From the IMG/VR virus record IMGVR_UViG_3300042503_000838, positions 61,843-125,842 of that record: a stretch of DNA of 64,000 nt. The stretch is one strand, 5' to 3'. The DNA is from a virus. Of this stretch, positions 9,641 to 47,194 are shown piece after piece (positions within the stretch are counted from its first letter, which is position 1; the number at the start of each line of letters is the position of its first letter). A model generated the notes under the pieces. It was not told where the DNA came from. It did no database searches and worked only from the letters and a program-made list of their open reading frames with translations. The position numbers were made by a program, and so were the translations under genes.

Positions 9641-9823
9641 TTAATCCTCCAGTACTTCGTAGCCTGCTATGTCATTCAGTCTACTCAATACAATTCCATT
9701 TCCTTTTAAATTCCACTCGAGAATATCACCCTCTTCCCAGCCAAGTTCTTCTGTTATCTCCTCCGGAAACGAAATGAAAATATCTCCGTTCTCATCTTCT
9801 TGAACTTCAAGGATGTAGCTCAT
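9641..9823 (-). CDS. AbrB/SpoVT-like DNA-binding domain protein
   Basis: 60 aa. The pattern GDIFISFPEEITEELGWEEGDILEWN matches the swapped-hairpin AbrB/MazE-type fold (beta-hairpin, short helix, LGW-x-EGD turn, then beta strands). Known members are transition-state regulators and antitoxins, and single-domain copies are common in cyanophages. No toxin partner is next to it, so I favour a small regulator. Its stop adjoins the next gene start, and its start overlaps the upstream gene by 4 bp. Confidence 0.7.
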   Translation of the reverse strand: MSYILEVQEDENGDIFISFPEEITEELGWEEGDILEWNLKGNGIVLSRLNDIAGYEVLED

Positions 9824-10113
9824 TTTGCCAAAAGCTTTTCCATAAGCTTATCAAGCTTAATATTGATCTGCTTAAAGTTGTCATGCATTTCTTGGATCTC
9901 CCTGAGGAAGTCCACTTTTAAAACGTATTCAAGCGGCATGCGATTGACTTGATTTTCAAGAGAAGTCACTTTATTCTCTTGTGTTATCAACATGTCATGT
10001 AATTGTTTCATGCGCTCATACGAGCGGCCTAATATTTTATTTGCGACCCAAGACCCCCCTGTAAGTGCGGAAATTACCGCTGTCAAACCAAGGGCTAAGT
10101 ACTCTGGTCCCAC
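9820..10113 (-). CDS. Single-TM protein with coiled coil (possible holin/spanin-like)
   Basis: 97 aa. Residues about 5-25 (YLALGLTAVISALTGGSWVA) form one membrane helix; residues 35-95 are charged heptad-like helix (ITQENKVTSLENQVNRM, QEMHDNFKQINIKLDKLMEKL). TM plus coiled coil is typical for phage pinholins, spanin-like or tail-chaperone proteins; the sequence alone does not choose between them. Overlaps the AbrB-like gene by 4 bp. Confidence 0.6.
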   Translation of the reverse strand: MGPEYLALGLTAVISALTGGSWVANKILGRSYERMKQLHDMLITQENKVTSLENQVNRMPLEYVLKVDFLREIQEMHDNFKQINIKLDKLMEKLLAK

Positions 10114-10145: not shown

Positions 10146-10205
10146 TTAGTAATCAAGATGAAGCTGCCCCTTGCGTGCAAGTCCGTTAACAAGCCAAACC
10201 AACTT
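10146..10205 (-). pseudogene. Displaced copy of the terL 3' end (18 codons plus stop)
   Basis: Read on the minus strand from 10202 to 10146 this encodes LVWLVNGLARKGQLHLDY and a stop, identical in all 18 residues to the end of TerL at 10632-10689, but 14 of 18 codons differ synonymously. Directly upstream of it in frame is a stop codon, so it is not translated as an exon of its own. The HNH gene lies between the two copies and its last codons overlap this relic in another frame. It looks like the original 3' end displaced by insertion of the HNH cassette. Confidence 0.85.
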
Positions 10206-10632
10206 TATTTAAGCGTTGCTCGTACGTTTTTATGCGATGGCAATTGGCGCATAATACTTGGCATTTTTTTATTTCTTCTTTTAATGCCTCAATATTGGTT
10301 GTATGCATTTTGGCGATATCGCGTGATTTGGTAACAGGGTCTAAATGATCAAAATCAAGGGCAGCATGATGATCCTTGTATCCACATTTTTCGCAACCAC
10401 GTTTTAATTTTTCATTTTTAATAATTTTTGCATTACGTTTTTGTGCTCTTTTTGCGGCATCGCGACAGCTAGTCTCTCTTTTTGCCCATGCCTCCGGACT
10501 GAGCCAATTCATCTGAAATGTTCCGTCTTTATTGATTCTTGATTTACGTCTATATCCCAAAAAAATCCGTCCGTCAAGACCGACTTCACCATACTTCCAG
10601 GGTTTATTTGTTTCAGGATTGACACGTTCCAT
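10186..10632 (-). CDS. HNH homing endonuclease inserted at the terL 3' end
   Basis: 148 aa. Residues about 85-140 show the classical HNH zinc-binding nuclease: CEKCGY, then LDFDHLDP (catalytic His in DH), and CQVLCANCHRIKT. The N-terminal 60 residues (RIFLGYRRKSRINKDGTFQMNWL) probably recognise DNA. The gene starts exactly on the last base of the terL stop codon (TAATG) and is followed by a duplicated terL end, the expected signature of a mobile cassette that rebuilds its target gene. Its AT-rich codon use differs from TerL. Confidence 0.88.
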   Translation of the reverse strand: MERVNPETNKPWKYGEVGLDGRIFLGYRRKSRINKDGTFQMNWLSPEAWAKRETSCRDAAKRAQKRNAKIIKNEKLKRGCEKCGYKDHHAALDFDHLDPVTKSRDIAKMHTTNIEALKEEIKKCQVLCANCHRIKTYEQRLNKVGLAC

Positions 10633-12158
10633 TAATAATCAAGGTGTAGTTGGCCTTTGCGGGCGAGGCCATTGACTAACCATACTAACGCGTCGACCGT
10701 GTCATCGTGACTACTGACACCAAAGTTTGTCAGTTCTTCAAACATGTTTGTGAAGTTACGGTAACGATTGAAGATAATCTTACGATCCTCGAACATGCCA
10801 ATAATGCCACGGAAACGAGCCAATTTATCTGCTCTAAATCCCTTAACTGGATGCCACAGTAAGTTGTAAAGACCTTCGTTGCTTAGGCAGACTCTCTTGA
10901 AGTCCGCCTCCAGGGACGCTTGGTACTGGACTGCTTCCGACCAAATGTCGCAAGTTGAATAAGTCGGAAAGTAATTCCCGTTATCATCGCGACCAAGAAT
11001 AGACCAATCATTGAGTAGCTCTTTCATTGCGTCAAGTTTTTCCAGGTTGCCCATTACGCGAATGCGGCGATAATCAATGATGTGTATACGATCATCAACA
11101 CGACCACCTAGCACCATTACGGTGTAGTCATTCTTTTCCTTGATGCCTGCGGATAGGTCGACACCAATGCCAAGAGCGTCAAATTCAGTTGAGATTTCAG
11201 CTTTAACAATTAGCTCTGGTGCCAGGGAGAGCTCGTTCTGTCTAATAACTTGATTCATGTATTGGAACGAAAAGGCAATTGGCGCCTGCCTTTTCTTTTC
11301 CTTTAGGTAATCAAGGGACCACATCTCAGGCCAATAGGACTCTTCGTCTCCGGTGACGGGATCATTTTGAATTGCAGAGAGAACAATCTGCGTCCAGTTG
11401 TTTTGTTCGTTGAATGTGGTTGCGTGAATGTCATCATGTCGGAAGCGAGTTCCAAGGCAGATGGCCCGTCCACCTTCAAACATGGTTGGTGCAATCACTG
11501 CGTTCCAGTTCTCCTGCATCATTTTTCTGATGTCAGGGTTTGCGATATCCGCCGAACTTTTAATGGCGTCATCAATGCAAACCAGATGACTACGCTTGGA
11601 GGTCACCGAACCTTTGAGGCCTGCAGCGCAGAGCGTGAACTGTTCGTCACCCGTGGTCTCAATACCAGCAAAGCGATGGTCAATTGACCAGTACTCATTA
11701 CTGGTTACGTTCTTGAGAAGACGTACCTTTGGAAATACTTCTTGGTAACGCTTGCTCTCAATGATACGTTTGATTGTTGCCGACTTAGAACGAGCAATGT
11801 CAACCGTATACGACAGATAAAGAATCTGAAGGGGCATCTTGGCTGTGGTATGCACGCCAATTGCCCATGCAGTGAACAACCCCAAGCTTGTGGACTTGGC
11901 GCTACCCCTGGGCGCCAATAAGTCAATATTGGGGCCAGCAACTTTAATCAGGCAGTTACTATCTTCCCCTGTAACGAAATGACGATGCCATTCCTTATGG
12001 TGCTTCGCAGGAGGTTTATCGGCTACATACTCACAAAAAAAGCTGAAATCTTCTCGCGCTAACGCAAGAGAATCTTCGTTTTTTGGTTTTCTAAGTTGTT
12101 GGTTCTTAGCTGCTGCCTTTGCGTTTCGCCTGTGTGTTAAGTGAAGATACGAAGGCAC
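10632..12158 (-). CDS. terL: Terminase large subunit
   Basis: 508 aa. ATPase domain with Walker A-like APRGSAKST at residues 82-90, Walker B LVCIDD followed by AIKSSAD, and a coupling motif around ILYLSYTVDIARSK. The C-terminal nuclease domain has GIGVDLSAG near the first catalytic Asp and SHDDTVDALVWLV with the last. It cuts concatemeric DNA and pumps it through the portal. The length is normal. The final 18 codons appear to be a recoded copy (see the relic at 10146-10205), probably supplied by the HNH cassette; the protein end is therefore intact. Confidence 0.93.
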   Translation of the reverse strand: MPSYLHLTHRRNAKAAAKNQQLRKPKNEDSLALAREDFSFFCEYVADKPPAKHHKEWHRHFVTGEDSNCLIKVAGPNIDLLAPRGSAKSTSLGLFTAWAIGVHTTAKMPLQILYLSYTVDIARSKSATIKRIIESKRYQEVFPKVRLLKNVTSNEYWSIDHRFAGIETTGDEQFTLCAAGLKGSVTSKRSHLVCIDDAIKSSADIANPDIRKMMQENWNAVIAPTMFEGGRAICLGTRFRHDDIHATTFNEQNNWTQIVLSAIQNDPVTGDEESYWPEMWSLDYLKEKKRQAPIAFSFQYMNQVIRQNELSLAPELIVKAEISTEFDALGIGVDLSAGIKEKNDYTVMVLGGRVDDRIHIIDYRRIRVMGNLEKLDAMKELLNDWSILGRDDNGNYFPTYSTCDIWSEAVQYQASLEADFKRVCLSNEGLYNLLWHPVKGFRADKLARFRGIIGMFEDRKIIFNRYRNFTNMFEELTNFGVSSHDDTVDALVWLVNGLARKGQLHLDY

Positions 12159-23483: not shown

Positions 23484-23693
23484 ATGACTGCACTCAACCT
23501 ACGTAAGAACACTGCTCAGTTCCTATTGAGCACTGCTCAGTCTCTATTGAGCACAGCATCTTTTATTGAGCAAGCCAAGGTTCCCAACAAGGAAGATATT
23601 GGCGAAAAGCTGAACGAGTATAGAACTCGGGCTGCGGCACTTATGATGCCGAACGACATGGCATTCGTTATCACACCTAAGACTGAAGCCTGA
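23484..23693 (+). CDS. Hypothetical early protein
   Basis: 69 aa from the ATG behind CTCAACTCAAC (23484); the open frame itself begins earlier with GTG, which I reject because of this leader. A repeated STAQSLLSTA segment and a charged centre (VPNKEDIGEKLNEYRTR) suggest two helices. Followed immediately by an attenuator-like structure. Confidence 0.6.
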   Translation: MTALNLRKNTAQFLLSTAQSLLSTASFIEQAKVPNKEDIGEKLNEYRTRAAALMMPNDMAFVITPKTEA

Positions 23694-23742
23694 CTCCTGC
23701 ACTAAGGGCCTATGGGCCTTTTCTGCAGGACTCAACATCCTG
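23694..23742 (+). ncRNA. Attenuator-like double hairpin, copy 1
   Basis: Starts right after the stop codon. Outer stem CCTGCA/TGCAGG (696-701, 724-729) encloses an inner GGCC-TATG-GGCC stem extended by A-T and G-T pairs and followed by T residues. CAGGA (726-730) can instead pair with TCCTG (738-742), destroying the outer stem. A second copy at 24193-24241 keeps both alternatives, with changes that preserve pairing. This is how attenuators and riboswitches are built; ligand or effector unknown. Confidence 0.65.
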
Positions 23743-23768
23743 TCATCAAACCTACCGAGCTCAACTCA

Positions 23769-23991: not shown

Positions 23992-24192
23992 ATGAACAAC
24001 AACTACTTCACAAACGCTGTGCTTGCCCTCGTTATGGGCGCAGGAGCAGGCATGCTGCTATCTGCTGGAGCACAGCAACTACTCAACAAGCACTACGTCA
24101 AGACATGCCCAGCAAAGCCAGGGCATCAACTCATATACATGCGTAGCTTTCTAGGCGATGCATACTATTGCTTAGATAAGCGCACACTCTGA
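23992..24192 (+). CDS. Small exported early protein with two cysteines
   Basis: 66 aa. Hydrophobic residues 8-28 (AVLALVMGAGAGMLLSAGAQ) look like a signal anchor; the exterior part has two Cys (KTCPAKPGH and YYCLDK). General design equals that of the 62-aa protein at 23216, suggesting related early envelope-targeted proteins. Function unknown. Confidence 0.6.
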   Translation: MNNNYFTNAVLALVMGAGAGMLLSAGAQQLLNKHYVKTCPAKPGHQLIYMRSFLGDAYYCLDKRTL

Positions 24193-24241
24193 CTCTTGCA
24201 CTAAGGGGCTTCGGCCCTTTACTGCAGGACTCAATATCCTG
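24193..24241 (+). ncRNA. Attenuator-like double hairpin, copy 2
   Basis: Directly after the stop codon of the 66-aa gene. Outer stem CTTGCA/TGCAGG (195-200, 223-228; one G-T pair) with inner GGGC-TTCG-GCCC (206-217), then CTTT. CAGGA (225-229) can alternatively pair with TCCTG (237-241). Compared with copy 1 the inner stem and tetraloop differ but pairing is kept, which supports an RNA function. Confidence 0.65.
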
Positions 24242-24266
24242 CATCAAACTTGTAGCTCAACACCAC

Positions 24267-46624: not shown

Positions 46625-47194
46625 GTGTCCATCCTCTTAAAAAACCGGCTTTCCCTGGAAACCCATCGCAGTTTGATTGAGGAACGTTTTTACATTTGTA
46701 CGGAATCCCCTAGTGGATTGCGGTATAAAGTAAACTTACGCGGCTCTGCCAAAGCAGGTACTGTTGCAGGTTCTTGTAATCACAATGGTTATTGGCAAAT
46801 CGGCATCCGCATAAATGGAACATATAAAAAATTTCAAGCACATCGTATTGTTTATTTTCTTCAAACAGGTATAGATCCTGGTGAGTTAATTGTTGATCAC
46901 GCACAAGGAATTGAAAACCCGCTTGATTTAAGAGGTGGCACTCAAAGTGATAACTTAGGTAACGCAAAAAAAAGATTGTTGGTAAACGGTAAGCCAACAA
47001 CAAGCAAATACAAAGGAGTTAGTTGGTTTACTCGTACACAAAAATGGCGAGTTGAAATTAAACATCAAGGTAAATCAATACATCTTGGTTATTTTGATGA
47101 CGAAATTACCGCTGCTTTAATGTATGACGCAAAAGCTTTTGAATTGCGTGGAGACAAAGCACGTTTAAATTTTCCACACGAGATAAGTCGATAA
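46625..47194 (+). CDS. HNH homing endonuclease with AP2 domain
   Basis: 189 aa; GTG start. HNH part: HRIVYFLQTGIDPG, ELIVDHAQG (catalytic DH), QSDNLGNAKKRL. C-terminal AP2 domain: TSKYKGVSWFTRTQKWRVEI, SIHLGYFDDEITAALMYDAK. AT-richer than the structural gene before it. TATAAT stands 26 bp upstream, a possible own promoter. Typical mobile cassette inserted between two genes. Confidence 0.85.
   Translation: MSILLKNRLSLETHRSLIEERFYICTESPSGLRYKVNLRGSAKAGTVAGSCNHNGYWQIGIRINGTYKKFQAHRIVYFLQTGIDPGELIVDHAQGIENPLDLRGGTQSDNLGNAKKRLLVNGKPTTSKYKGVSWFTRTQKWRVEIKHQGKSIHLGYFDDEITAALMYDAKAFELRGDKARLNFPHEISR

Follow-up and report, generated by a model that had tools for sequence, protein, structure and literature searches.

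Why should a viral gene for the large terminase subunit (terL) have its own 3' end repeated, in other codons, on the far side of a nuclease gene? The question arises from a 64,000-nt stretch of DNA (the window) that belongs to the 125.8-kb virus record IMGVR_UViG_3300042503_000838. Its terL (10632..12158, minus strand) is a complete functional copy of 508 aa (Terminase_6C 5.9e-11; phrog_38 1.7e-76); it shares 82% identity with the cyanophage S-EIV1 terL, and hundreds of relatives are present in IMG/VR. The adjacent gene (10186..10632, minus strand) encodes an HNH endonuclease of 148 aa (Pfam HNH 1.3e-4; phrog_3106 1.1e-29), whose ATG has one base in common with the terL stop codon TAA, an overlap already pointed out in the initial annotation. 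The last 18 codons and stop of terL (copy 1, 10632..10688, minus strand) and the downstream copy detached from the gene (the relic, 10146..10202, minus strand) both translate to LVWLVNGLARKGQLHLDY followed by a stop. They are identical at 42 of 57 nucleotides and differ at 15, and 14 of the 18 codons are changed, every one silently, so that the repetition claimed at the outset is real. The relic had also been placed correctly, while copy 1 ends at 10688 and not at 10689. The relic does lie downstream, as described, but not wholly beyond the HNH gene, since the HNH reading frame terminates within it and shares 17 nt with it. A gene of 97 aa in its native context follows (9820..10113, minus strand).

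The duplication was assessed with a flank-versus-flank score, an ungapped comparison of the two HNH flanks, for which 51 mismatched-locus pairs served as controls. A locus nearly identical to the window's (L084) scored 98 and the control maximum was 42, which indicates that the duplication is not due to chance. At least 29 distinct HNH-containing terL loci have both copies, and those with a relic reach whole-flank scores of 79-108, against 42 or less in the mismatched controls. In L105 and L106, the approximately 200 nt separating HNH from the relic contain an extra short reading frame, starting MTIILDTQEFLEEITQD. No other coding duplication of a comparable type was found in the 64-kb window; the sole other repeat flagged there (23692/24191) resembles an intergenic hairpin element, a terminator-like structure present in two copies 499 nt apart (23692-23750 and 24191-24250; CACTAAGGG..CCTTT.CTGCAGGACTCAA.ATCCTG). 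Every terL case is a metagenome contig, and an assembly artefact merging two strains might be suspected; nevertheless, the same order at nearly constant spacing recurs in dozens of independent contigs, with relics and downstream DNA matched to the lineage, and we regard the chance of such an artefact as negligible.

The HNH gene of the window is intact. Its motif region (residues 80-137, CxxC ... DFDH ... CxxCH; 10222..10395, minus strand) consists of invariant columns, and the confidently predicted structure (pLDDT 90) begins with a beta part at the N-terminus, followed by a long helix and, at the C-terminus, the HNH region. A profile search against solved-structure sequences gave no match, and the best Foldseek hit of the model in the PDB was weak (HNH nicking enzyme 4h9d, E 0.1), so neither search revealed a close solved relative. 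HNH is present in five of the 80 terL loci nearest to the window and in about 5% of close relatives, and is absent from most; this sporadic presence is observed at one site for which intact HNH-free alleles exist (L005, L061, L051). In another group of loci (L151-L156), an HNH gene 44-48% related to that of the window is located after terL without a relic. Elsewhere in the window (46625-47194), an AP2-domain gene (Pfam 5.1e-8) is possibly another mobile nuclease-like gene.

Empty alleles reveal which of the two copies is native. In the HNH-free relative L005, the terL tail is identical to the relic at 55 of 57 positions and to copy 1 at 43, in agreement with the initial expectation that the empty allele should match the relic at the nucleotide level, and the sequence that follows it is the same as in the window. 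The recoded tract reaches approximately 88 nt into terL (10632..10719, minus strand); here the mismatches between the window terL and L005 rise abruptly from about 3 per 57 nt to 10-13. The empty tail of L061 shows 4 mismatches to the relic of L045 and 14 to its copy 1, with terL bodies 2.2% apart. In both L045/L061 and L059/L051, bodies that differ by 2-3% end in tails (last 57 nt) that differ by 25%, and the raised divergence stops about 90 nt before the terL stop. Of the copy-1 tails, 83% have another copy 1 as nearest neighbour (17% expected), but a copy 1 is nearest to just 2% of the relics (28 relics); relics resemble HNH-free tails, and copy 1s resemble each other. The relic of L059 is less clear-cut (12 mismatches to L051 versus 14 for copy 1), and in L070 and L090, with no close empty relative, both copies are equally distant. 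Because empty alleles and nearest neighbours match in this way, the downstream copy is the native terL end, and copy 1 is the version that arrived with HNH.

The same design recurs elsewhere. Past the 3' end of a helix-hairpin-helix gene, and in antisense orientation, stands an HNH gene whose subfamily is 41-44% identical to that of the window (L109-L111, L115, L116, L159, L160, L163, L164). The end of the helix-hairpin-helix gene, AVLAADLIRV plus stop, is duplicated in other codons. Empty alleles (L270/L271) match the L111-type relic and its terminator, and the loci with HNH have an additional terminator-like hairpin; the window's own helix-hairpin-helix gene is HNH-free. In L169, HNH has entered a phrog_29158 gene at its 5' end, and the start of that gene is recoded (minus strand; relic 832-742, new start 219 onward). 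Compared with the empty allele L239, the relic (87/87) and the upstream DNA (60/60) are identical, while the recoded start matches at 66 of 87 positions and the next 129 nt at 126, and the insertion is apparently very recent. The match between empty allele and relic thus holds at two genes besides terL, and the idea of a mobile nuclease carrying a recoded gene-end patch, first raised for terL, gains support from all three (L005, L270/L271, L239). Related HNH genes with a diverged duplicate also occur at the 5' end of a DUF3310-like gene (L161, 2900-3600) and at the 3' end of a DUF3310 gene (L404, 2450-3020), and these probably follow the recoded-end design.

In KP34-type Klebsiella phages, a 44% related HNH stands at the end of the DUF3310 gene, where a duplicated end was looked for and not found. 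In Klebsiella phages RCIP0099 and RCIP0039 (L419, L420; 1413-1655), the DUF3310 gene is followed by what seems to be a remnant of the KP34-type HNH with an internal deletion. Another pair differs by the HNH gene itself: it is missing in Bas102 (L425), where the DUF3310 frame extends into the codons with which the HNH frame of EFA-2 (L424) closes. Nine bacterial loci with HNH relatives gave no convincing duplicated ends, and flank scores of up to 60 among them (L410) reflect low-complexity G+C-rich stretches.

The position of HNH directly next to terL, overlapping its stop codon, would also suit a functional part of the packaging machine similar to HK97 gp74, beside which the duplicated tail would be incidental; HNH proteins encoded close to a terminase can take part in packaging, as discussed in PMC10448857. 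This role was rejected on the sporadic distribution, only one in about twenty close relatives having the gene, and homologues at unrelated genes, often with the recoded-end design, likewise make it highly improbable.

The recoded tail travels together with the nuclease. In L059 and L101, the terL bodies (19%), relics (19%) and downstream sequences (21%) have diverged, whereas copy 1 is identical and HNH 99% identical (1% divergent); in L094/L095, the body differs by 25% and the relic by 30%, compared with 4% for copy 1 and 9% for HNH. Over all loci, HNH distance is nearly uncorrelated with terL-body distance (rho 0.10), and together with the L059/L101 pair this indicates movement independent of the host gene. 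The terL tract most tightly coupled to HNH spans -90..-46 before the stop (partial correlation 0.37, p 0.003), and coupling of the tract from -135 to -90 is not significant (0.11, p 0.16). Since L059 and L101 share copy 1 and HNH despite 19%-21% divergence elsewhere, the recoded tail must have arrived ready-made with HNH, and joint transfer of the two is, as far as such sequence comparisons can show it, demonstrated. The initial proposal that a recoded copy restores the terL protein stands, with the difference that this copy is not made on the spot but comes with HNH (L059/L101, L094/L095).

Over all HNH-containing loci, copy 1 follows the local terL lineage as well (partial correlation 0.61). 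Hence the tail does not stay constant in the long run, a general rule of invariant co-travel was rejected, and older tails seem to have been reshuffled or to evolve locally. This lineage signal, and the often lineage-specific amino acids of both copies, are what one would expect if the terL tail, plus HNH, had been duplicated in tandem long ago and then passed on vertically, with codons drifting silently under protein constraint. Such a history does not account for sister empty alleles that match the relic, for a divergence jump limited to about 90 nt or for the near independence of HNH and terL distances; moreover, drift after insertion cannot yield the fresh insertion of L169, in which the relic equals the L239 allele at all 87 positions and the recoded end at 66. 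It is refuted for L239/L169, L061/L045 and L059/L101, and very unlikely as a general explanation.

The pattern of recoding hints at the target of the enzyme. HNH-containing and HNH-free tails differ most strongly at -69..-67, -55 and -52 (Fisher tests by position, p 1e-8 to 1e-12, uncorrected for kinship and not independent, as HNH-containing loci share ancestry). In the motif HDDxVDA, which belongs to the terminase nuclease active site and falls inside the Terminase_6C match, the variable residue is Cys in 113 of 127 distinct HNH-free tails and Thr in 20 of 30 tails with HNH, usually with all three bases changed. In the window, the Thr codon ACG (10698..10700, minus strand) replaces the Cys codon (TGY) of HDDCVDA that is the usual state of HNH-free relatives. 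This position is just upstream of the 18-codon interval to which silent recoding had been ascribed; the description holds for that interval and fails for the wider tract, of which the Thr codon is the non-silent part. As the relic starts 57 to 63 nt before the stop, the insertion lies inside the cluster of strongest differences, which sit on both sides of the relic junction. The signature codons are missing from some HNH-containing loci (L108). That recoding destroys the nuclease's own recognition site is plausible.

Alternatively, the arrangement may be real and the recoding a mere by-product, the tail having come from a divergent donor phage to form a hybrid gene whose codons were never selected for immunity. 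Copy 1 does move with HNH between phages about 19% apart, and fungal precedents have been explained as foreign C-termini (PMC3630166). On the other hand, copy 1s of diverse hosts share a codon signature clustered at the junction, including the three-base Cys-to-Thr change, and there is an HNH-free tail (L008) with just the core of this signature. These two observations suggest selection on the site, short of proof, and the by-product explanation is less likely than not.

Several HNH-free alleles look like products of nuclease loss. The tail of L004, and equally that of L323 from a distant clade, is copy-1-like in its first part and native in the second, and L044 and L008 retain the core signature without HNH. 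According to the initial annotation, HNH-free relatives with the upstream codon version would speak against a mobile nuclease; such relatives exist (L004, L323), yet all are chimeras that join copy 1 to native sequence and look like scars of HNH loss. Alleles of the L004, L323, L044 and L008 types could have come from recombination between the two copies or from partial conversion.

Taken together, the data are best read as an HNH homing element in S-EIV1-like cyanophages that moves as one unit of recoded terL 3' end plus HNH gene, a reading to which we assign a probability of roughly 85%. The HNH enzyme would cut HNH-free terL near the DDCVDALVW codons, and repair would copy the unit from an HNH-containing phage; crossover positions suggest upstream terL as the left homology arm, and the relic plus downstream DNA including the 97-aa gene as the right one. 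Since the incoming tail encodes the same residues, terL keeps its function, and the recipient's old tail persists as the relic; both points are visible in the alleles compared above. The changed codons would eliminate the site of the enzyme at the junction, and would also leave the two copies ill suited to deletion by recombination. Occasional recombination between copy 1 and relic would remove HNH and leave a chimeric tail, probably still immune. It is reasonably likely, with less assurance than for terL, that a widespread phage HNH family attacks essential genes at their 3' or their 5' end and in sense or antisense orientation, and that each of its lineages brings a pre-recoded, protein-preserving and cleavage-immune patch for the gene end, with loss scars that keep the immunity. 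In this way, a selfish gene that does not splice can enter the most conserved and essential part of a viral gene without harm, as it supplies a synonymous patch for the repair. The homing cycle of phage nucleases can be read from the sequences of recent insertions, of independent target genes and of alleles scarred by loss, which also yield predictions, open to checks in vitro, of where the enzymes cut and which codons are immune. Engineered gene drives use recoded rescue copies, and the HNH-borne terL tail is a natural parallel.

Inteins and group I introns in phage terL represent likewise a selfish invasion of a conserved terL motif, but the HNH element involves no splicing and terL ends before HNH. 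An intron or intein in the window was ruled out, as terL is uninterrupted with its own stop and an Rfam search around the locus gave no match at E<=1. The S-EIV1 terL (L083 3001-5541; KJ410740.1 54080-56620), annotated only as putative terminase, contains an apparent intein at RSHL^C..LIDD, about 330 aa long and in frame. To our knowledge, free-standing endonucleases of the T4 Seg/Mob type sit between intact genes, whereas the terL HNH element substitutes its own version for the end of the gene, the old one staying behind as a relic. The intronless homing of these enzymes shares with our case a nuclease beside an essential gene, sporadic presence and a co-converted diverged flank (PMC2988022). 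HNH genes in terminase neighbourhoods, including HK97 gp74, are as close to the terminase as here, although the window HNH lacks a conserved terminase association and any indicated packaging role; the passages of PMC10448857 consulted contain no description of a recoded tail with a relic. Nor was a phage precedent for the recoded-end HNH design found among the open-licence PMC papers searched. The closest architecture is that of mobile ORFs in fungal mitochondria, where an endonuclease ORF at the 3' end of a gene comes with a foreign, mostly synonymous C-terminus fused to that gene, and the native C-terminus remains downstream as a relic matching endonuclease-free relatives (PMC3630166). Hybrid genes of this kind are Allomyces atp6, Glomus atp6, atp9, cox2 and nad3, Rhizopus atp9 and Mortierella cox2 (PMC3630166). 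The in-frame recoded end, the endonuclease ORF and the native relic are common to both, but the fungal elements use LAGLIDADG or GIY-YIG enzymes in mtDNA, while an HNH family in a phage contig is found here, with overlapping stop and start codons, several target genes, insertion at both 5' and 3' ends and also antisense, and chimeric scars free of HNH. The element is a phage version of the fungal architecture that differs in enzyme family, host, choice of gene end and strand.
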